From Acidobacteriota bacterium (GTDB lineage: Bacteria > Acidobacteriota > UBA4820 > DSQY01), in assembly GCA_040752915.1 (NCBI GenBank), contig JBFMHB010000003.1:10166-68586 (forward strand): a stretch of DNA of 58,421 nucleotides, written 5' to 3'. How positions within the stretch are numbered: the first letter of the stretch is position 1; each line of letters begins with the position of its first letter. The notes under the pieces are model-generated. The model was given only the letters and a program-made list of their open reading frames with translations, had not been told where the DNA came from and did no database searches. Shown piece by piece: positions 4,829 through 58,352 of the stretch. Made by a program: the position numbers and the translations under genes.

Positions 4829-6493
<1,665 letters not shown>

Positions 6494-25247: not shown

Positions 25248-26054
25248 TTGGCGCCCGCGTGGGGATGGAGCGAGTCGGGGGGCGTGACGTCGTGGTGGGG
25301 CCAGGCCCGGCTCCTGACCTACCGGCTCAAGGTCTACGTCTACGCCGTGGACGACCTGCTGGTGGACGCGGGCTCCTGGAGCCTCCGCGGGCCCTTCTGG
25401 GCCTTCTTCGAGGGCCGGATGCCCCGCCGGGTCGCCCTCACCCATATGCACGAGGACCACTGCGGCAACGCCGCCGCCCTCGCCGAGCGCGGCGCCGCCA
25501 TCCTGGCCCCCGCCGCCGGGCTGGCCCAGGCCGCCGTCGAGCCCCGCCTTCCCCTGTACCGGCGCCTCATCTGGGGCCGCCGCCCCGCGTTTCCGGCCCT
25601 TCCCCTCCCCGGCCTCCTGGAGACCGATCGCCATGCCTTCCGCGTCCTTCCGGGGCCGGGGCACACGGCGGACCACGTCCTCTTCCACGAACCTTCCCGC
25701 GGCTGGCTCTTCACCGGGGATTTCTTCCTCACCGCCACCCCGCGCGTCATCTTTCAGGACGAGGACCTTCGCGTCACGCTGGAAACCCTCGAAAAGCTTT
25801 CGTCCCTGGATTTCGAGACCCTCTTCGACACCCACCAGGGTCCCCTCGAAAACGGGCCGGCCCTCCTGAGGCGCAAGCGGGACTACCTCCTGGACCTGCG
25901 GGGGCGCGTGTCCGCCCTGCGCGAAGCGGGTCTCTCGGACCAGGCCATCGACCGCCGCCTCTTTCCACGAAAACCGCTCATCACCCACGTCTCCCGGGGC
26001 GAATGGTCCTCTCTTCACATGGTGCGAACGGTGGGGAGGGGAGAAGGTGAGTAG
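25248..26054 (+). CDS. Metallo-beta-lactamase-fold hydrolase
   Basis: 268 residues. The metal-binding motif is THMHEDHCGN at about 65-74, followed by the third ligand in PGPGHTADH and the Asp in FTGDFFLT; a late His in DTHQG fits the fourth. The spacing is that of glyoxalase-II/RNase-Z-like hydrolases. Substrate unknown. TTG 25248 is chosen for GGGAGG upstream. The stop codon TAG lies within the first copy of the tandem octamer into which the prophage inserted, so the phage left the protein intact. Confidence 0.9.
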   Translation: MAPAWGWSESGGVTSWWGQARLLTYRLKVYVYAVDDLLVDAGSWSLRGPFWAFFEGRMPRRVALTHMHEDHCGNAAALAERGAAILAPAAGLAQAAVEPRLPLYRRLIWGRRPAFPALPLPGLLETDRHAFRVLPGPGHTADHVLFHEPSRGWLFTGDFFLTATPRVIFQDEDLRVTLETLEKLSSLDFETLFDTHQGPLENGPALLRRKRDYLLDLRGRVSALREAGLSDQAIDRRLFPRKPLITHVSRGEWSSLHMVRTVGRGEGE

Positions 26055-26079
26055 GTGAGTAGGTGAGTAAGTGAGTAAG
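26047..26079 (+). repeat. Left remnant of tandem octamer array
   Basis: Four copies of an 8-base unit (GTGAGTAG twice, GTGAGTAA twice) plus one base. The array continues on the far side of the prophage. The last five bases GTAAG (26075-26079) are the left copy of the insertion duplication. Confidence 0.95.
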
Positions 26080-26126: not shown

Positions 26127-26254
26127 TCACAATCGGGGCGGCGAGGGATCTCGCGGGCAACAGTAATCGGGCTCTTCGCCCGAGCGTGAGTGCGGTGGTC
26201 GCGGATTGTGGGGGCCATTGAAGGCCCATTCATTGCGCCTGAATCGGCGCGCGA

Positions 26255-29200
26255 CTAGCCCAACTCCTTTAGGTTGTGAGCCAAAATCCACAACCCTTTT
26301 CCACCGATCCAATACCGGCCGAGATCGACGGTGATCGAGTACACGTCGAGGCCTGCTGGCGGAGCGTGCAGCTCTAGGCACCCGACGGTCACTGGCCCGT
26401 GAATACCGTAGAGCCTTGTACCCGGGACGCAGCCACCGGCTGAGACCGTCAGGTCAGGTTCGCTGGGCACAAACGCAAAGAGAAGATGCTCGGGTGTTAC
26501 ACCGATGCAACCATTCAGGAGGAGGCAGGACGGGACGCGGTGGACGCGCTTCGCTGTCACTCTGGCGTAGGCGTCCTTGCCCCTGTACCGTGACAGGACC
26601 AGGTCGCCGACCTGCACATCGGCCATCGTGATCACGCGGTTCTCTGGGCCCCTGAGCAGCGCCTGCCCCCAAAAACACGAGCCGCCACCATCGTCACCAC
26701 CACCTGGTGGGGCGCTGCCGCTGGGCTGGATATCGGCGCGCGTGAGATTCCCCCACCAGACCTCATACGAGGAGGACGCGGGATCCCAGGCGTAAAAGCA
26801 GATTTTGCGGCCGTAGGTCGCGTCTCGATAGAGGAACGGCGTGCCCATCAGATCAGCGCTGGGGGTGGGCATGTTCGCCATGTTGATCGCGCCACCTACG
26901 AGCATAGACCCCTTTAAGACCGGCTGGCTGGTGAACGATGGCGTGCCGCCGGAGTTGCCTGTGGGCGTAGGCAACAGCACGGCGGCCGCCTGGAGGACGC
27001 GGGCGTACTCCGTACTCCCATCAAGCACGGCCACCTTCACCCCGCCGGCCGTCAAATGCCCATCGGAAGCTCGCTCGAAGATGCTCAGGAGGTCACGGGC
27101 CGCGGCCGCGTCCCACAGGCGGCCAGGAGGCACGGAGGCCGCCTCGACCACCAAGGTAGAGACGGTCTCGCTCCAGCTCCCGATCTTCGAGCCCACCCAT
27201 GCGTGCCACTTGGCGATGCGGTGGGTCGTGTCCTGGACAACAAGCCCCTCGCCAGTTTGGCCTACTGTGACGAGGATCTTCTTGGCGTGGATCTCGATCT
27301 TCACCGGAAAACTCTCGGTGGTGGGCAGGGCCGCAGACAGGGCCAGGGAGGCGACAGGCGTTGCTCCTGGCGTACCGGCCGTGACGACGAACAGGTCCAC
27401 CGCCGTCGTGGACGAGAAGCGGAGAGCATACCCAGAATAGGGCGCCGCGCCGGACGTGGACAACACGCCCAGGTACGCCGATCCGTAGGCCGAGAGCTTC
27501 AACGCCATCGAGACGCTGAAGGCCTTCTTGGGTAGATCGCGCGCTTGGCGGCCCCGCCAACCCGCTCCGGAGAAGGTCACCTCGTCGGATGCCCACGCGG
27601 CCCCCACGGTGTCGGCCCACGCGCCTTGCCCGACGCCCTGGTCTCCGTCTCCCGAGCCGCCGGCCAGGGCCGTGGCCCACCAGGCGGCGGTAGTACCGGA
27701 GGCGGAGGGGTAGTACGCGCCATCCGTCAGGTGCTTGTCGCGGATCCAGAACCGCACCACAGGGAGCTGGTAGTCTCCCTCATTCTGGACCGAATACCGG
27801 GCCTTGCCGGACGTTCTCTGGGGCCAGATATCCGCCGCCTTCAGCGGCTCCCATGTCGTGCCCCCGTCAACCGTCTGCTCGCACAGCAGCTCCTTATAGG
27901 CGCCACCGGCCGCGCCGGACCATTGCACCTGGAAGGTCGTGTGGTCCCGCTTGGCGGCCTTGATGGCCAGACCCGTAATGGCGGGAGCGGCCGGCAGGCT
28001 CGACCCGGCCGTCACCTTGTGGGCCACTGGCACGGTTGGGGGGTTGTCCCCCCAGCCGCCTGCGCCGTCAGCCGTGGACCAGGCAGACGATGCGGTACCG
28101 TTGACGCCCTTCCACCGCAGGTAAATGGTCCGGCCCTGGGCCGCCACGGCCTTCTTGTAGAAGGTCAGACCGGAGAGCCCCTCTACGCGCACGTTCCAGC
28201 GGTCCGCGTCCTTGAGTGTGGTCCCATCGTACTCCTTCGTCTCCACCACCAGGTCCGTGCAGCCGGCGAAGGTGAAGGCGGCCGACAGGTCGCACTCCAC
28301 CCGGCGGGTCCCCGGGACGTCCCGCTCTGTGCTCGTCAGAGAGGTCAGGGAGGGCAGCGCTGGGGGGGTATCGTCTGAGGCCGGCACGGTGCCCGCATCG
28401 TAGATGACGCTGTAGGTGGCCTGCTTGTGGCAGTCCTCGACCTTGAGGATGGCGGCGCGGATCGCGGTGCCCGACCGCACGTCCGTGATTTCGTAGGACG
28501 TCCGTGGAGTAGCGGCCGTGACGTCCGCCTCGATGTCCACGGTCTTTCGCAGTTTCCAGGCGGTGTTGGTGTCCGGTGTCCCCGTCGTCCCTGTGGGTGC
28601 GGTGTACAGCCGCAGGCGCCGGAGGAGGCTCACGGGATGCGAGCCGTCGTAAGCGACCGAGACGGCGTACTCGTCCCCCTTCTTGACCCGCGTCACACCG
28701 GTAATGGACGGTGCCAGAGGGGCACCCGGGAGGGCGGACCCTCCGGCCACGGTCGCCCACGTACCGGGGTTCGAGAAGGTCGCCTTGGCGCTTCCGTTGG
28801 AGCACACGACCTTCGTGACCGTGAGCGTCCCCCCGCGTTTGAACTGCGGCGGGAAATAAGCCGCGCCCGCCGCGCCCTCCACGAGCACGGTCAGGCGGTG
28901 CGTCTTGCCTGTAGTGCTGTCCGTCAGCACCACCTCGGCCTCGGTGCAATCGGCCACGGTAAAAGTAATGGAGCAGTCGCACCGCTTGGCGCTGGAGCCA
29001 TGGGGCTCCGATTCGACCGAACTGATCGTGCCCATCACGAATGTGTTGGGCGCGGGGGTTCCCTCGACGGTATCGTCCTCGGTCCCACTGGAGTTCTCGT
29101 CGCTCGGAGGACTCTCGCGCAGGTCGTCCAGGATGGCCACGACATCGGCCCACCAGAGTTTTCCCGCCGGCAGGCGGACCTTTGCGTAGTAGAGCCCATC

Positions 29201-30802
29201 GGATTGCTGGTCAGGAGGTACGGTGAACACGCGCTTGGGCTTTTCCCGGTCCTTGGCGTCAGGCCAGACGGTGATCTGGAAGCGCCACACCAGGGCTCCG
29301 AGCTCGTCGTAGGGATAGGCCCAGCGGAGCTCGAAGAGCCTCATTTTGGTTTCGGAGATCAGGTTCCCGTCCTCGTCCACTTCCCGGACCGTCGTGAGGC
29401 GCTTGTATTTATCGGACGGGAAAAGGGTATTGAAGGTCGTTGAATAGCTCTTTGTGAATACGAGGCCCGTGGGTTCCGGCGGGTCTTCGTCGTCGTCCGT
29501 GAGGTCGTCCTCGTCGTAGGAGCCTGGATCCGGCAGCGTCCCCGACTTCGCGACGAGGTCGAGGGTCAGCTCGCCTCCGTCCTCGAGGTCCTGCCCTACC
29601 TGGACGACCCGGTACTCCACCCCATCGAGGGTGACCCGCTTGCCCGGAACGTAGGCGGTGGCGTCGTCCCACACAGGGACCCCCTCGGCCTTCTGTCGCA
29701 CCCGCCCCCAGTAGTCCCAGTAGCGGGAGGCCACGGCGAGGAGCTGCGTGCGGTCCTTGGTGAAGGGGAAGTCTTTTTCCAGCTTGTTCCCGCCGAAGGG
29801 GGAGAGCCCCTTCCGCACCTGCCGGCCGTCGCGGCCCCTGATGACCACCAGGTCGTAACGCCGATGACCTGCCGGCGCGATGTTCGCGCCTTCTGCGCCC
29901 ACCAGCCCGGACAGATCCTGGACGGGCGCTCCGTCCGCGTCCTTCTCGCGCCCGACGACGTGGATCACGCCGGCCCGACTGAAGACCTGGGCATTCACCC
30001 AGTCGGCCACAAGCGTGACAGCGGCCCCCGCGTCCTTGCCCTCGAAATCGGCGATGTCCACCGTATCGTCCCACGTCACACCATCGTAGTCGATGACGCG
30101 ATGCGCGGCATCGAACCCAGGCACCAGGTCGAGCAGCGCCTCGATTAGGGCCCCCGCTGTCCATCCACGGAGCCATGGATTTTTCACCACGATGGCATCG
30201 CTGGGCCCGTAGTTGAAGCGCAGGCGCTTCTTGAAGGTGATCGTGTTCGTGCCCAGGTTGACCGAGGCCACCACGAGGGTCTGTTTCCCGATCTTGGTGT
30301 TGGGCTTCACATGCGCGAGCTCGAGCTCATCGCCGGCGGAGAGGGGCTCGCCGGAGGCATCGAGCACGCTGTTGACCACGAGGTTTTTACTGTGGCGCGC
30401 GCCGCTCACGATGGCGAGGGACGAGTAGTCCCGCTTGAGGTTCTCCGCATTGTGGGCCTCGAGGCGCTTGATCGCATCGAGCACGCGGACCTCAGTGACC
30501 GATTTGGCGGAGTTGTGGGTCACAGACTCGTAGTCGAGATCGCCCTCCCAGAAGGGCGTCCCGCCTTGGAGCAGCCGGAAGCCGAACCGATTCGGGTAGG
30601 CATCGGTAGGGGTCAGGTTGGCCGCGCTGAACAGCGTGGACCAGAAACCATCGGAATTATCGAGCGTGAGCGACAGATCGTCGAAGACGGCGCGGGCCTC
30701 GTAGTCCTCGAATTTCTGCGAGAGGCTCCCCGCCTCGCTCTCCAGGAGAGGGACATCCTGGAAGGAGCCGTCTTTCAGGCGCAGTTGCAGGCTCCAGCTC
30801 AC
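26255..30802 (-). CDS. Tail-tip/central hub protein with C-terminal Hint domain
   Basis: 1515 residues. The N-terminal part (about 1-450) resembles a tail-hub protein. The middle has repeated beta-sandwich, fibronectin-like segments, and about 1110-1250 looks like a concanavalin-type beta domain. After a Gly/Asp-rich linker, residues about 1375-1515 form a Hint domain: CFWGQALL, VQVGDLVLS, GVTPEHLLFAF and a final YWIGGKGLWILAHN followed by LKELG. Hint domains cleave or splice themselves; here no splice acceptor Cys/Ser/Thr follows the final Asn. GTG 30802 overlaps the previous stop (GTGA). As the last late gene it should form the tip that contacts the host. Confidence 0.88.
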   Translation of the reverse strand: MSWSLQLRLKDGSFQDVPLLESEAGSLSQKFEDYEARAVFDDLSLTLDNSDGFWSTLFSAANLTPTDAYPNRFGFRLLQGGTPFWEGDLDYESVTHNSAKSVTEVRVLDAIKRLEAHNAENLKRDYSSLAIVSGARHSKNLVVNSVLDASGEPLSAGDELELAHVKPNTKIGKQTLVVASVNLGTNTITFKKRLRFNYGPSDAIVVKNPWLRGWTAGALIEALLDLVPGFDAAHRVIDYDGVTWDDTVDIADFEGKDAGAAVTLVADWVNAQVFSRAGVIHVVGREKDADGAPVQDLSGLVGAEGANIAPAGHRRYDLVVIRGRDGRQVRKGLSPFGGNKLEKDFPFTKDRTQLLAVASRYWDYWGRVRQKAEGVPVWDDATAYVPGKRVTLDGVEYRVVQVGQDLEDGGELTLDLVAKSGTLPDPGSYDEDDLTDDDEDPPEPTGLVFTKSYSTTFNTLFPSDKYKRLTTVREVDEDGNLISETKMRLFELRWAYPYDELGALVWRFQITVWPDAKDREKPKRVFTVPPDQQSDGLYYAKVRLPAGKLWWADVVAILDDLRESPPSDENSSGTEDDTVEGTPAPNTFVMGTISSVESEPHGSSAKRCDCSITFTVADCTEAEVVLTDSTTGKTHRLTVLVEGAAGAAYFPPQFKRGGTLTVTKVVCSNGSAKATFSNPGTWATVAGGSALPGAPLAPSITGVTRVKKGDEYAVSVAYDGSHPVSLLRRLRLYTAPTGTTGTPDTNTAWKLRKTVDIEADVTAATPRTSYEITDVRSGTAIRAAILKVEDCHKQATYSVIYDAGTVPASDDTPPALPSLTSLTSTERDVPGTRRVECDLSAAFTFAGCTDLVVETKEYDGTTLKDADRWNVRVEGLSGLTFYKKAVAAQGRTIYLRWKGVNGTASSAWSTADGAGGWGDNPPTVPVAHKVTAGSSLPAAPAITGLAIKAAKRDHTTFQVQWSGAAGGAYKELLCEQTVDGGTTWEPLKAADIWPQRTSGKARYSVQNEGDYQLPVVRFWIRDKHLTDGAYYPSASGTTAAWWATALAGGSGDGDQGVGQGAWADTVGAAWASDEVTFSGAGWRGRQARDLPKKAFSVSMALKLSAYGSAYLGVLSTSGAAPYSGYALRFSSTTAVDLFVVTAGTPGATPVASLALSAALPTTESFPVKIEIHAKKILVTVGQTGEGLVVQDTTHRIAKWHAWVGSKIGSWSETVSTLVVEAASVPPGRLWDAAAARDLLSIFERASDGHLTAGGVKVAVLDGSTEYARVLQAAAVLLPTPTGNSGGTPSFTSQPVLKGSMLVGGAINMANMPTPSADLMGTPFLYRDATYGRKICFYAWDPASSSYEVWWGNLTRADIQPSGSAPPGGGDDGGGSCFWGQALLRGPENRVITMADVQVGDLVLSRYRGKDAYARVTAKRVHRVPSCLLLNGCIGVTPEHLLFAFVPSEPDLTVSAGGCVPGTRLYGIHGPVTVGCLELHAPPAGLDVYSITVDLGRYWIGGKGLWILAHNLKELG

Positions 30803-31221: not shown

Positions 31222-33633
31222 CTATCTCCCCAGCCGTGACCGGCGCTCCTCGTCCAGCGCCGCAGACATTTTCCGGGCCGCGGCCCGCATGTAGCCCCGG
31301 TTCCCCGTATCCACAAACGCGAACCCGTGGAAATGAGGCTCCCACGCCATGGTCTGGGCCGCGCCGGCGCCCACTCCCGCCACCGGCGTAGGGCCGAGGG
31401 CGGCCATGCGGACGGTCGCCACCGTATCGGCCACGAGCCCGGCAATCACCGCCTGAAAATCGCGCTGGGGGGCGATGAGTTCGGGCCCGGCTTCGCCGAT
31501 CAGCGCGAGCGTGGGGCGGTCCACCAGGCCGCCGCTTGCGAACGCGGCGATACCCTTGGAGATGGATTCCCCGAGGGCCGTCATGATCGCCCAGGTGAGC
31601 ATGGCCTTCTCGGCCAGAGCTGTGGCGATGGCCACGCCGGCGAAGGGGATGGCCGAGTGCGCGGCGAAAATCTCCGCCACCGCGGCGCTCATGTTCGCCG
31701 CCGCCACGCCGTATTCGGCCTTCCGCTCCTCCTTGGCCGCCGCGACCTTCTTCTTGGATGCCGCGGCATCCGCCGCGCCCGCCTTCCCGGCGATCATGTC
31801 CACCAGCTTCCCGGCCACCATGGCCAGGATCCGGTTGACGAACTCCATCAGGAACGAGACGACCATCTGCCGCAGGACCTGGCTCCACCGCACCTTCATG
31901 CCCATCATCAGACTGTAGAGGGCCTGAGACACGGGCTGGAGGGCCGAGACGATGCGCTCGGCCCACAGGGCCGTCTGGGCATTCAGGGAATCGTAAGCGC
32001 GCCGGATCACCTCCTGCATCGGATCCAGATGCGCCCCCACTTCCAGCCGCACACGCTCCATCGCGGCCTGGATGGCCCGTTCCGACTCGGCCTGGGCCTT
32101 TTCCTCCTCGGCCCGCCGGCGCTCGTCCTCCTCGGCCTGCGCCCGCTCATTGATGGCCTGAATCTGCTGGACCTTCCACTCCTCGATGCGGACCAAGGCG
32201 TCCGCGAGCGCCTGCCCGCGCAGGACGGCACGCGCCGCCCTCTCTTTTTCGGCCGCCTCGATGCGGACCTGGGACCGCTCGTACTCCATGGGGTCCATGG
32301 CTTTCATCTTGTCCCCGGCCATGGAGCGGGAGATGGCCTCCCAGGAGGCCGCCGCACGCTCGAAGGCCGCGCGGCTGGCCTCCGCGGCCTGCTGCATGGC
32401 CCTCTTGATGGCGTCCGCCGCCTTGGCCCCCTCCTCCTTGGCCTTTTTCGTCCCGACCTTCATGCCGCCGGCGAAGGCCTGGCCGGCCGCTTTCGCCCCC
32501 ATCTCAATCGGGGCGGTCGTCCCGCTCCAGGCCTCCAGGATCGACTGCTGGATGGAGCTCGCGGCCTCCGAGGCCCGCTCCTTGATGGCCAGCGCGGCGC
32601 GCGCGGCTTGGCGATCCACGGCCTCCGCGGCGGCATCGTCCCCCCGGAGGTGCAACCACAAGGCCTTGAACGTCCCGGCGGCCCCCACGCCCAGCGCTGT
32701 GATTTCGCCCTGGAGGCGCACGATCCCGGCGATGAAGAGGCCCACCCCCTGCGTGATCATCCTGATGCGCGGGAGAAGAGGAATCAGCGCGGCGTTCAGC
32801 ACGGCCCCGATCGCTTCCTTGGTATTGTCCCAGGCCACCCTGGCCCGATCGAGGGCCATCGCGGAGTGGTCGATCTCCGCTCCCGCGTCACCGTAGGCCC
32901 GGTACAGGTGAGTGATTTCGTCCGCCGTGATGACGCCATCCTTCCCCGCGTCGCGGAGGGCCTGGCCAAAGGCGCCCACTCCACGGATGGACCCGGTCAC
33001 GAGCATTCGGGTCATGTCGTCCACGTTCTGGGCAAAGTCGCCCAGACCGCGCGCGGCGGCGCCAGCCGCGATCTGGGTCAGGATTTGCGCCTGGGTCAGA
33101 TCCTCGGTCACCGCCATCAGTTGGATGACGCCAGGGGTCAGCTCCTCGTTCGTTTTTCCGCTGGCCCGCTCCATGGCGTCCATCCACGTGTTCAGGCGTT
33201 CGATCTGTTCATCTGTCGCCTGCGTCAGGCTCCGGGCCGCGTTCTCCACCTCCTGGACGGCGCGGGAGTTCTCGATGGCCGCCTGGGCGCTCGATCGCAG
33301 GAGGTTGACGACGCCGGCGAGGCCAGCCGTGACCCCCAGCAGCCCGAGGTAGCCCTTTATCCGGCTGAAGGCGGCGGTCAGCGACGTACTGTCCACGGTG
33401 GGCCGGACGACGGCGGCCTTGTCGGCGTCCCGCTTGAATTTCTCCGTCTGCGCCGTGGCCTGGCGCAGGTCGCGAGTGAGCCGGTCCGCGGAGGCCGATA
33501 GATCCACCTTCCCATCGCGGAACGCCTGGAGGCGGTCCTTGACCTGGCGCAGGCCCTTTTCGATGTCCTCGAAAAGCGGCCCCAGGTTCGCGGCCAGATC
33601 TACGACGAGGGGGTCATCCGTCTCAGTCGCCAT
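31222..33633 (-). CDS. Tape measure protein
   Basis: 803 residues, largely helical and Ala-rich, with a coiled stretch at about 395-530 and hydrophobic segments near 100-115, 245-275 and 595-620. The N-terminal 250 residues follow the phage tape-measure pattern (GAFGQALRDAGKDGVITADEI). The protein sets tail length and is ejected with the DNA; at about 0.15 nm per residue a tail of roughly 120 nm is suggested. It overlaps the chaperone gene by eleven bases. Confidence 0.9.
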   Translation of the reverse strand: MATETDDPLVVDLAANLGPLFEDIEKGLRQVKDRLQAFRDGKVDLSASADRLTRDLRQATAQTEKFKRDADKAAVVRPTVDSTSLTAAFSRIKGYLGLLGVTAGLAGVVNLLRSSAQAAIENSRAVQEVENAARSLTQATDEQIERLNTWMDAMERASGKTNEELTPGVIQLMAVTEDLTQAQILTQIAAGAAARGLGDFAQNVDDMTRMLVTGSIRGVGAFGQALRDAGKDGVITADEITHLYRAYGDAGAEIDHSAMALDRARVAWDNTKEAIGAVLNAALIPLLPRIRMITQGVGLFIAGIVRLQGEITALGVGAAGTFKALWLHLRGDDAAAEAVDRQAARAALAIKERASEAASSIQQSILEAWSGTTAPIEMGAKAAGQAFAGGMKVGTKKAKEEGAKAADAIKRAMQQAAEASRAAFERAAASWEAISRSMAGDKMKAMDPMEYERSQVRIEAAEKERAARAVLRGQALADALVRIEEWKVQQIQAINERAQAEEDERRRAEEEKAQAESERAIQAAMERVRLEVGAHLDPMQEVIRRAYDSLNAQTALWAERIVSALQPVSQALYSLMMGMKVRWSQVLRQMVVSFLMEFVNRILAMVAGKLVDMIAGKAGAADAAASKKKVAAAKEERKAEYGVAAANMSAAVAEIFAAHSAIPFAGVAIATALAEKAMLTWAIMTALGESISKGIAAFASGGLVDRPTLALIGEAGPELIAPQRDFQAVIAGLVADTVATVRMAALGPTPVAGVGAGAAQTMAWEPHFHGFAFVDTGNRGYMRAAARKMSAALDEERRSRLGR

Positions 33634-38412: not shown

Positions 38413-40755
38413 TCAATTCACCGAGCGGGACAGTTCCCGCCATTGCGCACCGTCGCTGATCAGCACCAGAGTGGCCCCCACGCTAGAGCTGAAGGTGCCG
38501 TTCAGGTTGACCCACCCGGCGGCCCCAGCGTCCGCCACGCTGGTTACCGCGTCCTCGAACGTCAGGACGAGGATTTTCCCCGGCGCACCACCAAGGATCC
38601 CGGCCACGGAGCGGGCGGTTGTGCTGGCAGGGATCCGCACGAATGAGCACGCGCGCGCATCCACGGTGGCGATGCCGACCGTCAGGGGTGTGGAGGTGGG
38701 CGCCCCCAGTAGCAACCCCCCGGCGGCTGTCAATGGCCCCTGAAAGACCCATGGGCCGGCCAGCACGGCGGGGATATCGTCCCCGATAGCCAGGCTGTAG
38801 GGCGCAGACGTGCCCGCCACCGTGGTGCCCGCGTAGCTGAACGTCGCGGTGGGGACCCCTTTGCCGCGCGTGATCAGGATAGTGGATCTGGACGCAACGG
38901 CGTAGACGCCGGGGCAGTGCGCATTGATGGCCGTGGCCACCCCCGCCGCCGTCCCCTCAAGGTCCATGAGCCAGGAACCGTCTCCTATATCCTGGTAGTG
39001 GCTGTAGAAATGTATCCCGGAAATCAGCTCGTACCGGACATGCCCCACTATTACCACCACAGCCTGCCCAGTAGGCACGGCGCCAATCACCGATATGGCC
39101 TTGATCCACCGCGAGGCGCTCCCGGACACCGCGGTGCCCGCCGCGCTCCATGTCGCGGCGGTGTAGCCATCAGGGACCTCCACGGTGGACACCGCGAACA
39201 CGTTAAATGTCTGACTCACCGGCCACACCTGCACCTGGTTTAGATACGCCCCAGTCGGGGCCAGTGACGGGGTCCCCCATGTACCGTCCTCGCGGAGGTA
39301 TAACGCCGTGCCATCCCCGCTCGGGGGCACTAGGCCAGGCGTCGCGCCCCCTTCGAAGGTGGGGATCGTCTGGGGGAGGCTCACCCCATTCACGGTGAGC
39401 GATGTGGTCGAGATGCTAGTGGCGGTAATCGTACTGAACGACCCCACCGAGAAATAGCTGGGCCGATGGAAGGTGAGGGTATTGCCGGCGCCGTTGCCGG
39501 AGATCATGGGGTAGACGTTCCCGAGCGCATCGGAGACGGTGATCGCGAGATTGGAGTCCCCGATGGTGCTGTACCCCGCCTCGTAGCCGAGGAAGGTATT
39601 GCCCCAGCCGAGGTTCTGGAATCCCGTCCATGCGCCCCAACCGGTGTTGTAGGCCCCGGAGACGTTGGACCAGAAGGCATTCAGGCCGCCCCAGGCGTTC
39701 CGGTTGCCGGAGACGTGGTTGGCGCCGGCGCCCGAGCCGAAGTACGAATCGCCGGCGGCGGTGGTGATGTGGCCGCCCGCCCCACCGGAGCCCACGACGG
39801 TGGTCTGGTGGGCGGTGGTCACGCCGGGCGCGATGTTCTGCCCGATCCAGATGTTCCCTTCGACCTGGGGGGCTGTTCCGTGGCCCGGCCCGATGGAGAT
39901 CAGGTCCGGCGTGGCCAGCACAAGCGGGAGCCCGTTCAGGTGGATGCCCCCGCCTGTCGTGCCCGCCACGTTGATGACCGCGCCGAGCGCCCCGTCGGCC
40001 ACGGCGTCGAGGTAGGTGGTCGTGGTGTTGTCGGCGAGTGTGCCCACGAGGTAGTAGGGGTACGGGCTTCCGGCGAGGGTGCGGTAGATCCGGCGGGCCG
40101 TCACCTCGGAGGAGCCCGTGGGGATCCCGGAGAGGCGCGCGGATTCCCCGGCGAGCGTCGCGGTCCACCCCGCGCCCCCGTACCCCATGGCCGACTCTCC
40201 CGTAGCCGTCACATACGTGACGCCCCACGAGTAGGCACCCGTGAGGGGCCCCGCGCCTTCGGCCGCGACGGTGCCCGCGGACACCACTGGAGCCACCGTG
40301 GAGCGCAGGGCGAGCGTGCGCCCCACTAGGTCGTACCACCCTATGTCCACATCGCCGGTGGCACCGGCGTAGGGCACGAGCAGCTCCGACCAGGAGGGCT
40401 CGGGTTCAGGCGCGGCGGGGACGGCCGTGTTCAGGTCCACGGCGGCCGTCCCGACGCTGTAGGTAACCCCCGCGGAGAGGGGGGTGTTCGGGACGACGAC
40501 GCGGACCTGGCAGTCCTCGGGGACGGACCAGGTCAAGACGCCCGTGGCCGCGCTGTAGGCGGGCGTTTGCGGCCCTGTCAGGTAGGCGGGGTCCGGGTTG
40601 GCCTGCCAGGTCACGGACAGGGTCGCGCCGGGGACCGACGCGGGGATCGTCCCATCGGGCCGCGCGACGGTGTAGGTCACGCTCACGTAGTCCGCGCCCA
40701 GGACGGCGACGCCGAGGGCCAGCAGGAGGGCGAAGAGGCAACGGGCGCGGCGCAT
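38413..40755 (-). CDS. Tail fibre-like protein with Sec-type signal
   Basis: 780 residues. The start MRRARCLFALLLALGVAVLGA reads as a signal peptide. Later come features of trimeric fibres: Gly/Asn repeats (NAWGGLNAFW, NTGWGAWTG, NTFLGYEAG) at about 430-490, the LYLREDGTWGTP element near 570, and a C-terminal ALVLISDGAQW-like tip (VLISDGAQWREL). ATG 40755 has GGAGGGG. It sits between the tail terminator and the lysis genes, apart from the other tail genes. A signal peptide on a virion fibre is unusual; it may instead be an N-terminal anchor. Confidence 0.72.
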   Translation of the reverse strand: MRRARCLFALLLALGVAVLGADYVSVTYTVARPDGTIPASVPGATLSVTWQANPDPAYLTGPQTPAYSAATGVLTWSVPEDCQVRVVVPNTPLSAGVTYSVGTAAVDLNTAVPAAPEPEPSWSELLVPYAGATGDVDIGWYDLVGRTLALRSTVAPVVSAGTVAAEGAGPLTGAYSWGVTYVTATGESAMGYGGAGWTATLAGESARLSGIPTGSSEVTARRIYRTLAGSPYPYYLVGTLADNTTTTYLDAVADGALGAVINVAGTTGGGIHLNGLPLVLATPDLISIGPGHGTAPQVEGNIWIGQNIAPGVTTAHQTTVVGSGGAGGHITTAAGDSYFGSGAGANHVSGNRNAWGGLNAFWSNVSGAYNTGWGAWTGFQNLGWGNTFLGYEAGYSTIGDSNLAITVSDALGNVYPMISGNGAGNTLTFHRPSYFSVGSFSTITATSISTTSLTVNGVSLPQTIPTFEGGATPGLVPPSGDGTALYLREDGTWGTPSLAPTGAYLNQVQVWPVSQTFNVFAVSTVEVPDGYTAATWSAAGTAVSGSASRWIKAISVIGAVPTGQAVVVIVGHVRYELISGIHFYSHYQDIGDGSWLMDLEGTAAGVATAINAHCPGVYAVASRSTILITRGKGVPTATFSYAGTTVAGTSAPYSLAIGDDIPAVLAGPWVFQGPLTAAGGLLLGAPTSTPLTVGIATVDARACSFVRIPASTTARSVAGILGGAPGKILVLTFEDAVTSVADAGAAGWVNLNGTFSSSVGATLVLISDGAQWRELSRSVN

Positions 40756-40757
40756 GG

Positions 40758-41153
40758 TCAGGCCCCTCCCCGGGCGAGCACGGTGACGCTCAGTTGGGCG
40801 TGGAAGTACGTTTGATCGCTGATTTGCGAGGGGGCCCCCACGCGGATCACGGAGAGCGCTGGCGCCGGGAGCCCGTCGCGGAAGGTCTTGTTCCGAAGGG
40901 CGTCGGCCGCCGCGTCGAGGGCCGCGAGGGCCTCGGACCAGGACACCGAGGACCAGGCGTTCACGCGGATCTCGACCTGGTCGATGCCCGGGTTCAGCGC
41001 ACCGGATCCGCCCCCGAGCTCGAGGGCGAGGGCGGGCACCACGCCGGACACGTCGGCGCGGCTGACGTGGATGCGCGCGCCCACGAGGGCCGCGACGCCG
41101 GCGGACGCCAGGAGCCATGTCCGGATGGAGGCGAGCACGGCGGCGTTAGCCAT
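40758..41153 (-). CDS. Tail terminator, DUF3168-like
   Basis: 131 residues, alpha/beta, with the DUF3168 pattern: VLASIRTWLLASAGVAALVG, a central strand VEIRVNAWS, and the C-terminal YFHAQLSVTVLA. It should close the head-proximal end of the tail tube. The start overlaps the previous gene by eight bases. The order connector, closure, gp10-like, DUF3168 is typical of siphoviruses. Confidence 0.8.
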   Translation of the reverse strand: MANAAVLASIRTWLLASAGVAALVGARIHVSRADVSGVVPALALELGGGSGALNPGIDQVEIRVNAWSSVSWSEALAALDAAADALRNKTFRDGLPAPALSVIRVGAPSQISDQTYFHAQLSVTVLARGGA

Positions 41154-53332: not shown

Positions 53333-54247
53333 TTAGGCCGCGTGGGCGGGCATGATGAGCTGGCGGGCCGCGCGGACGGCGGCGCCGGTGACGGTGGGTT
53401 GGCCGTTGAGACGGGCGACGCGCCGGGCCTGGTTAAGGAGTTTGGCGGCGGCGCGGAACGATCCGCGAGTGCCTTCGGCAATGATCATGCGGCGGGCTTC
53501 GGGATCCTCGACCTGGGCGGCGTCGAGGTACTGCTCGAGGTCCACGGGGGTGGGGTTGGTGATGAGGGCGTTGAAGTCGACGCGCGAGTATAGCTGGGCG
53601 AGGTTCTCGTTGGCGTGGGGCCCCCTGCGGAGGAGGCGCTCGAGCTTGGGCGTCCCGGCGAGGATCAGGCCGCACCAGCCGCCGTCTCCCCAGATGGCGC
53701 GCAGGGCTTCGAGGCATCGTACGGGGAGGAGGTCGGCCTCGTCCACGATCACGAGCTGGCCCTTGCAGCGGGCTCTGGCCTCGCGCATGAGCTGCGCGTT
53801 GGTGAGACCGCCGCCTTCGGCGCGGGCGAGTTCCTCCAGGAGGACCTTGAGGTTGGTGGTCACATCTGCGCGGACGTAGACGACCTGGTCGTGCTCCTGC
53901 GCGAAGAGTTGGAGCGCCTTGGTTTTGCCCGTGCCCGGGTTGCCCTGGATCACGCCGAATTTGCACTCCTCCAGGCACTGGGTGGCGATCTCTTGGATGA
54001 GGCGGTACCCCTCGGCGGCGACGACGCCTTCGCCGGCGGATTTGCGCTCGTGCAGGAACTCGGCCACGCGCCGGTCCATGACCTCCTGGGCTTGGTATTT
54101 CCCCTGGAGCCACTGGGAGATGGTGCTCTGGCTGACGCCGAGCATCTCCGCCAGTCTGCGCTGGCCCCAGTTGCGGGCCGCCATCAGAGATTTGAGTTCC
54201 CCGATGAGGGCCTCGGTCTCTCCTCTCGCGCTCATCGTCTCGGTCAT
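53333..54247 (-). CDS. MuB-like transposition ATPase
   Basis: 304 residues. The N-terminal HTH (RRLAEMLGVSQSTISQWLQG) is that of MuB, followed by an AAA+ core with Walker A (QGNPGTGKTKALQLF), Walker B (GQLVIVDEADLLPV) and a sensor region (LILAGTPKLERLLRRG). MuB binds DNA as a filament and presents targets to the transposase, also giving target immunity. ATG 54247 has AAGGAGG and overlaps the transposase stop. Confidence 0.93.
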   Translation of the reverse strand: MTETMSARGETEALIGELKSLMAARNWGQRRLAEMLGVSQSTISQWLQGKYQAQEVMDRRVAEFLHERKSAGEGVVAAEGYRLIQEIATQCLEECKFGVIQGNPGTGKTKALQLFAQEHDQVVYVRADVTTNLKVLLEELARAEGGGLTNAQLMREARARCKGQLVIVDEADLLPVRCLEALRAIWGDGGWCGLILAGTPKLERLLRRGPHANENLAQLYSRVDFNALITNPTPVDLEQYLDAAQVEDPEARRMIIAEGTRGSFRAAAKLLNQARRVARLNGQPTVTGAAVRAARQLIMPAHAA

Positions 54248-56304
54248 GACTCCTCCTTTCGTGAGTGGGCCTGGGCCTGCCGTTGGAATTCCCATACGAT
54301 CAGCTCTCCCACGGCCACGCTCTGCGCGTGCGTGGGGGGGTTGGGGCGCTTCTCCATCGCCCGCTTCGCGCGGGCGGCCTGGCGTACGGAGCGGTCGTAG
54401 CCGGTGACGTGGGGCATGGGGATGACCTGACCGGCGGCGGCGAGTTCGCGGGTACCTGGGACCATGGCGGCCAGGGGGTTCGCGGCGAGGAGCGCGGCGC
54501 GCCTCTCGCGGTACTCCTTGCGGGCTCGGGCATTGCCCGCGAGGAAGGCGCGGAGCTCTTCGGTCTCCTCTTCGGTCTCGGCGAAGGGGGCGGCGCCCGT
54601 CTGGGCCTGAGCCCAGGCGGCGAAGGCACCCTTGCGAAGGACGAGGACCTCCCGGAGGTCGCGGGGGTGGTAGCGGACCTCGACCTCCTGGCCGATGAGG
54701 GGGGCCAGGTCGGGGTGCCAGTAGAGGGTCTTATGGAGGTGGATCCCGTCCTGCCGGACCTGGCGGGTGGCGGAGGGGAGGATCAGGACGTCCATCACCT
54801 CGCGGGCCGGCAGGCGCACGGTGGCGCCGAGGCCTTGGAGGTAGACCTCGGCGGGGGTGTAGTAGGACTGGGTGGCGGGGTTCCATCCGATCTGCGAATG
54901 CGGGCGGCGGTTGTAGGCGCGGATGGCCTCGGAGACCTCGATCTCCATCTCCCACCAGGTCATGAGGCGGCGCTCCCCGCGGGCACCGTTGGATTGGAGC
55001 CACTCCTGGGTGGCCTTCACGTCCGCGGCTAGGTGCTCGGGGCGGTGCTGTGGTGACCGCCCGCAGTAGCCCTTCATGAGGCAGAGCCAGCCGCTTTCAA
55101 GGGTCCCAAAGAAGCGCTCGATCGGTTTCGATTTCCCGTGGTACGGCTCGCAAAAGTGGGTAGCGATACCGAGGTGCCCGAAGAGCCCCCAGATCGGATC
55201 CTCGTGAGACTGGCGGAAGACGGGGACGGTACTACCGTTGAGGAGTTTGGCGCGGTAGTCCTTGCCATTGTCCACGTAGACCTTGGCTGGGATTCCCTGG
55301 AAGGGCTCGTCTTCTGTGGGGAGAATCCCGGCGCGGAGCGCCAGGCCGATTTCGAGGGAATTGGGCTGAGGGTTGATGGTGTATCCCACGATAGCGCGGC
55401 TGTGCCCGTCCTGCCAGGCGGTGAGCCAGGGCCGGCCGATGGTGCCGTCCTGGCGGATGACGAGGAGGTCGAGCTCGTGGTGGTCTCCTACCCAGCAGCC
55501 GTTCACGGGGATGCGTGACCAGTCCCGCCGGCGGATCGGCTCGCAAGTGTCGCGGTAGACCTTCTCCCCCCACCGGATGTAGGTGGCCTTCCCGCGGCCG
55601 CCGAGGACCTGCTCATCCGTGAGCCACCGGTAGATGGTGGCCCGGGAGGGAGTGGCTTCACCAAGGCGCGTGCGCAGCGCGTGCAGCACTTGCTCGGGGG
55701 TGGGCCGTTCAGGACGGAGGTAGAGGTCTACCGCCGCCTGGCGGATGGCGGCGGCGGTGGTGGACATCCGGCGGCCGGCCTTCGGAGGGGCAAGGAGGCT
55801 TGCGGCGGTACCATCGTACCGGCGCGACCATCTATATATAGAGGATAGGGGGAGATGGTGGCGTTTCGCAAATGAAACCTTCTCCGCCTTGGTCTGGCAG
55901 GCGCGGAATGCCTCGACCAGGCCGGCGCGGTGGGCGGCTTGACGGAGGGCCTTCCCGGAGGCGCGCTGGAGGGTCTCGGCGGGGACCTCGGCTTGGGGGG
56001 CGTCCTGGAGCGGCTCGGCTGTCTGGGTAGCCAGGACGGTGGAGACCTTTTGCTCCAGTGTCTCCCCCCTACGGGCGAGGTAGGCGCGCTGACCGTCTGG
56101 GCTGAGGGCTGTCCAGTGGACCTCGTAAGTCCAGCCCGCGAAGCCCACAGAGGTGACCTTCCTGACCTTGTCGGGGGGGTAAAGATTTTGTGCGATTCTC
56201 TTTTTCACAGCCCTTGATGTAATACCTTCAAAAGTTCCCAATAGGTGCAGGTTGAGCCACCCTTCGGCCGGAGCGGTCTGTTGCGCATCCTGTTGACATG
56301 TCAT
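54244..56304 (-). CDS. MuA-like DDE transposase
   Basis: 686 residues from ATG 56304, chosen for GGAG eight bases upstream; a longer start nine codons before is less likely. The N-terminus has a Mu-type DNA-binding domain (WLNLHLLGTFEGITSRAVKK), with further HTH units at about 115-240. The catalytic triad fits D274 (WVGDHHELDLL), D345 (YVDNGKDY) and E396 (KPIERFFG), with Mu-like spacing. The C-terminus is basic and would contact MuB. It should recognise the sites at both ends and cut after CA. Upstream lie repeats that may serve as operator. Confidence 0.95.
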   Translation of the reverse strand: MTCQQDAQQTAPAEGWLNLHLLGTFEGITSRAVKKRIAQNLYPPDKVRKVTSVGFAGWTYEVHWTALSPDGQRAYLARRGETLEQKVSTVLATQTAEPLQDAPQAEVPAETLQRASGKALRQAAHRAGLVEAFRACQTKAEKVSFAKRHHLPLSSIYRWSRRYDGTAASLLAPPKAGRRMSTTAAAIRQAAVDLYLRPERPTPEQVLHALRTRLGEATPSRATIYRWLTDEQVLGGRGKATYIRWGEKVYRDTCEPIRRRDWSRIPVNGCWVGDHHELDLLVIRQDGTIGRPWLTAWQDGHSRAIVGYTINPQPNSLEIGLALRAGILPTEDEPFQGIPAKVYVDNGKDYRAKLLNGSTVPVFRQSHEDPIWGLFGHLGIATHFCEPYHGKSKPIERFFGTLESGWLCLMKGYCGRSPQHRPEHLAADVKATQEWLQSNGARGERRLMTWWEMEIEVSEAIRAYNRRPHSQIGWNPATQSYYTPAEVYLQGLGATVRLPAREVMDVLILPSATRQVRQDGIHLHKTLYWHPDLAPLIGQEVEVRYHPRDLREVLVLRKGAFAAWAQAQTGAAPFAETEEETEELRAFLAGNARARKEYRERRAALLAANPLAAMVPGTRELAAAGQVIPMPHVTGYDRSVRQAARAKRAMEKRPNPPTHAQSVAVGELIVWEFQRQAQAHSRKEES

Positions 56305-56336
56305 GGTGTACGCTCCATGTTGGCGTCTCATTGGCG

Positions 56337-58300: not shown

Positions 58301-58352
58301 GTAAGCGAGTAAGTGAGTAGGTGAGTAGGTGAGTAGGTAAGTAGGCAAGTAG
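58301..58352 (+). repeat. Right remnant of tandem octamer array
   Basis: GTAAG (58301-58305), the right copy of the target duplication, then about six units of the octamer: CGAGTAA, GTGAGTAG three times, GTAAGTAG and GCAAGTAG. Removing the prophage and one GTAAG restores ten units in register with the left remnant. Confidence 0.93.

Follow-up and report, generated by a model that had tools for sequence, protein, structure and literature searches.

The window, a stretch of 58,421 nucleotides from an Acidobacteriota genome, carries a prophage that is recognised as Mu-like because it encodes a MuA-type transposase. Besides a MuB-like ATPase, its other genes include a CII-like regulator, terminase, portal and head morphogenesis genes, together with a 901-residue protein (38413-41118) that weakly matches an internal virion protein family (phrog_511, 3.7e-6). 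The genes that frame the present analysis are as follows.

54244..56331, reverse strand: MuA-type transposase (phrog_310, 6.6e-96; Mu-transpos_C)
53333-54295: MuB-like ATPase, a prophage gene
31222..33633, reverse strand: tape-measure-like protein, two genes upstream of the tip gene (phrog_10093, tail length tape measure, E=4.7e-4)
26255..30802, reverse strand: tail-tip-type protein of 1515 residues with a GTG start, the last structural gene of the prophage (open reading frame list and translation)

The right end of the prophage probably lies about 175 bp beyond the tip-gene stop codon and the hairpin that follows it. The element is flanked on each side by a GTGAGTAG-type octamer repeat (26039-26078 and 58305-58344), with a TATGTAATGAGACT motif common to both prophage ends inside the octamer stretches, the ends themselves being approximate. 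The host genome has 19 exact double units of GTGAGTAG, spread over 11 contigs, against none in a reversed control. The Mu-like element of a second genome (G001) likewise ends at a GTGAGTAG-type array (L013, about 4880-4950). Transposing phages may have a preference for such octamer repeats.

We infer a tail-tip role for the 1515-residue protein from the position of its gene after the tape-measure-like gene and from homologues in the same place. Homologues of the tip protein were found in G007, G001 and G002. Its N-terminal part has homologues in G007 (two) and G001 but matches nothing named: it has no match in PHROGs, and a profile built from it also found nothing in the PDB. At the other end of the protein lies a Hint domain, with the following features.

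26678..26710, reverse strand: Gly/Asp-rich linker PPGGGDDGGGS ahead of Cys1 (translation)
26258..26677, reverse strand: Hint domain (A-type-BIL-like) with a 5-residue tail, residues 1376-1515 (profile, AlphaFold2, Foldseek)
26675..26677, reverse strand: Cys1376, Cys1 of the Hint and the block A nucleophile (invariant 9/9)
26540..26542, reverse strand: His1421, Hint position 46, outside the canonical catalytic set (invariant in 9/9 diverged tail Hints)
26486..26497, reverse strand: TPEH, block B Thr and His, residues 1436-1439 (His invariant 9/9; 2lwy alignment)
26273..26278, reverse strand: His1509-Asn1510, block G (Asn invariant 9/9; His 8/9, Ser in G005)
26258..26272, reverse strand: LKELG, the tail past Asn, with Lys at +2 (tails of 5-8 residues in 9/9, Lys at +2 in 8/9)
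26167..26183, reverse strand: terminator-like hairpin 3′ of the stop codon (consensus scan, 1 found against 0.5 expected; weak)

The original prediction placed a Hint domain at exactly these coordinates, and the translation bears this out with the motifs in the order linker, CFWGQ (Cys1376), GDLVLS, TPEH, AHN (1508-1510), LKELG and stop. It had also held that neither a downstream extein nor a nucleophile at +1 is present, that no toxin follows and that splicing is unlikely. This agrees with what is found: only five residues lie past Asn, the +1 residue is Leu1511 rather than Cys, Ser or Thr, and no phage gene lies downstream before the presumed prophage end. A splicing intein was rejected for the window Hint because there is no extein; both the C-extein and the Cys, Ser or Thr at +1 expected of such an intein are missing.

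Taken alone, the window protein gave a poor score against Pfam (Hint, E=0.045, under Pfam's cutoff) and nothing in PHROGs or NCBIfam, and relatives were therefore needed to support the Hint claim; once they are included, the match is well beyond what chance would give. A second phage has a 39%-identical copy at the same position of its protein (E=5.7e-13), and a profile of four rows found the BIL domain 2lwy in the PDB at 1.8e-6. With nine rows this rose to 2.9e-16, followed by the Hint of 8w20 (3.5e-15) and the BUBL BIL (1e-9), with weaker matches to a mini-intein (1.7e-7) and Hedgehog (1at0, 1.9e-5). AlphaFold2 modelling of the window domain with the nine natural rows gave a pLDDT of 94.3 and a pTM of 0.87, only the last three residues falling below 50; conclusions were drawn from this model alone because an earlier run with three rows was poor (pLDDT 43). 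The best PDB match to the model in Foldseek was again 2lwy (E=1.3e-8, TM 0.81, rmsd 2.2), followed by the BUBL BIL (6y75) and then Hedgehog and inteins. The profile search and the structure prediction proposed with the original prediction have thus both returned a Hint, and the predicted Hint fold of the C-terminal end of the tip protein is confirmed at the level of the model.

Profile searches yielded eight further C-terminal Hints, each forming the very end of a phage tail-type protein, and in most a Gly-rich linker precedes the domain. Four are on tip-type proteins (G002, G007, G005, whose gene is cut by the contig start, and a viral contig). One is on a tail fibre (G117:C3) identified by the PHROG match of its N-terminus and adjoining a baseplate assembly gene, while two (G117:C6 and G049) are on a shared family starting MTQ that has no PHROG match and was judged by eye to be tail-type from its neighbours. 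The last (G306) follows a minor-tail-L-like N-terminus and is encoded downstream of a tape-measure gene. Several relatives match PF07591 weakly. Other profile matches, to inteins in enzymes and to Rhs-like proteins, were set aside as their Hints are not C-terminal. Neither the window Hint nor the entire tip protein had a tblastn match in 50,697 phage records, and pattern scans with the window sequence alone (viral and genome contigs) or with a two-row alignment (viral contigs) found nothing; scans with richer alignments recovered one viral contig and two MAG contigs, the latter being G002 and G007 again.

Identity of the nine-row set to the window Hint is 20-37%, with only 5 of the 124 gap-free columns invariant, namely Cys1, His46, Gly56, the block-B His64 and Asn135. 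The chance of Cys1, the block-B His and the terminal Asn all falling among these five is about 3e-5 (a hand calculation from the counts), and the invariance of catalytic residues at such identity is as expected if selection keeps the chemistry. The nine post-Asn tails are LKELG, AKSLDI, AKALP, LKNLNN, AKALA, MKAQTL, IKIQTM, MIKVLLN and TKQPEILV; all nine stop 5-8 residues past Asn with no toxin following, and Lys stands at +2 in all but one, which has it at +3. The +1 residue is Leu in the window and L, A, M or I in the others, with Thr solely in G306. Both the recurrence on unrelated tail proteins and the x-Lys pattern lay beyond the reach of the original prediction. In a tree of 20 Hints, those of the window, G002 and the viral contig group together (98/97), as do those of G005, G007 and the two from G117 (83/88). 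The tail label requires about three changes on this tree (bootstrap range 2-4; long branches), and more than one capture of a Hint by tail proteins is therefore likely but not certain.

The G001 tip homologue (L013 1-4680; G001:C60) is 59% identical over its first third, but its C-terminus is unrelated, repeat-rich and without a Hint, and reads like a putative BNR-type propeller. The Hint module is therefore swappable, at the receptor-facing side of the tip, and dispensable for the tail itself.

Hint domains with a His-Asn end and no +1 nucleophile are A-type-BIL-like and have given mainly cleaved products (PMC7664689; PMC7765530). By this published definition the window Hint, judged by its motifs, is A-type-BIL-like, since it ends in AHN and has no nucleophile at +1; its membership of the wider Hint superfamily is seen in both the modelled fold and the profile homology. 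The A-type BIL domains of Clostridium thermocellum (2lwy) and Tetrahymena (BUBL BIL2, 6y75) have the same fold, blocks A, B and G and His-Asn end, likewise lack a +1 nucleophile and likewise are on non-conserved host proteins. In contrast to these, the window type forms the very end of tail proteins, where an x-Lys tail of 5-8 residues takes the place of any sizeable C-terminal flank. The Hedgehog C-terminal autoprocessing domain (1at0) shares the fold, the C-terminal position and the expected Cys1 thioester chemistry, whereas the window Hint keeps the terminal His-Asn and has no sterol-recognition region, the protein ending five residues past HN. Inteins of phage enzymes (terminase, ribonucleotide reductase) share the fold and catalytic blocks, but the window Hint lacks a C-extein, splicing and a homing endonuclease, and its host is a tail protein. 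The likeness to pretoxin Hints drawn in the original prediction holds at the level of the superfamily, but among solved structures BIL domains come closer than a pretoxin Hint as such; unlike PT-HINT, the window type is on tail proteins with no following toxin, the frame stopping after LKELG.

On balance we favour, with some reserve, the reading that the end of the tip protein is an A-type-BIL-like Hint acting as a self-removing C-terminal module. Going by its residues, the Hint would most likely cleave itself by a Cys thioester and Asn cyclisation and so leave the tail protein. Once the protein has folded or assembled, attack by Cys1 on the Ser-Cys bond just before it would give a thioester, hydrolysis of which would free the Hint from the Gly-rich linker, while cyclisation of the His-Asn end would cut off the LKELG peptide, and the mature tip would then end in a flexible linker. 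In support of self-removal, computation shows a Hint fold whose catalytic residues are conserved, which stands at the end of the protein with just five residues beyond it and which recurs on tail proteins that are unrelated. Cleavage at the C-terminal side is perhaps weak or absent in some relatives, because block F is variable and block G has Ser for His in G005. Tailspikes and fibres of other phages have C-terminal intramolecular chaperone autocleavage domains of the Peptidase S74 type (PMC8326128). These resemble the Hint in place and proposed role (C-terminal, self-removing and swappable, on tail proteins) but differ in fold and chemistry, and the Hint may occupy their slot with a different chemistry.

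The conserved Lys after Asn is not explained by simple shedding. Lys at +2 is present in 8/9 tail Hints against 0/10 toxin-like or surface Hints (Fisher 1.2e-4, the rows being related rather than independent), in keeping with a reading in which an amine or thiol, not water, attacks the Cys1 thioester so that the tip becomes covalently joined to another tail subunit, the released x-Lys peptide or the cell surface, much as in Hedgehog or BIL ligation. The Thr at +1 in G306 would fit such ligation, as would a BIL domain that ligates without nucleophilic side chains, claimed in the title of a paper cited in PMC7664689. We consider ligation rather unlikely, as BIL domains mainly cleave (PMC7664689; PMC7765530), the protein has no domain for sterol or substrate recognition past the Hint, and no fixed partner gene adjoins it, with none downstream in the window. 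The bolder proposal that phage tails use the Hint thioester to join the tip covalently to a tail subunit, the Lys tail or the host surface, so that it would serve for adhesion or crosslinking and not for cleavage, is distinctly doubtful.

It is also unlikely that the Hint is inactive and that the tip uses it as a folded cap or binding domain at its C-terminus: the domain stands where receptor-binding domains can lie, and the block-F Asp and His vary among the nine, as does the block-G His in G005, but binding alone need not keep Cys1, the block-B His and the terminal Asn invariant in sequences this diverged. Loss of the toxin from a former pretoxin Hint is very improbable even though related Hints of Ruminococcus phages and Acidobacteriota Rhs-like proteins precede C-terminal extensions, as the window clade is not nested among toxin Hints in the tree (at low resolution) and tails of the same length carrying x-Lys on tail proteins of several kinds, with the catalytic residues kept, argue for selection rather than decay.

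An open-access literature search of partial coverage did not find a tail protein that ends in a Hint; the phage Hints that it found are inteins of replication and packaging enzymes. While the Hint/BIL kind is already known, what is new here is a Hint that closes tail proteins, recurs on unrelated ones and keeps x-Lys after Asn. Given this recurrence, a Hint may serve some phages to trim the tail or to activate it chemically. Fixed on unrelated tail-protein ends, a Hint would open a separate way for tails to mature or to undergo covalent chemistry. The Lys after Asn offers a concrete residue for testing that chemistry. Among the BFVD viral structure predictions are phage proteins named fibronectin III or collagen repeat that contain a Hint fold, anywhere in the protein, and the C-terminal tail arrangement may therefore be widespread and undescribed.

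C-terminal Hints are not confined to phages, since a 1414-residue, surface-protein-like Acidobacteriota frame (L056, G222:C237) ends in a Hint (VHNKEKPKK..., 17 residues past HN). Near the Hint tip genes of related phages, several genes (L016 8863-12136; L003 17593-18255; L007 11189-13520) have hydrophobic N-termini that by eye resemble signal peptides, an oddity for virion proteins.
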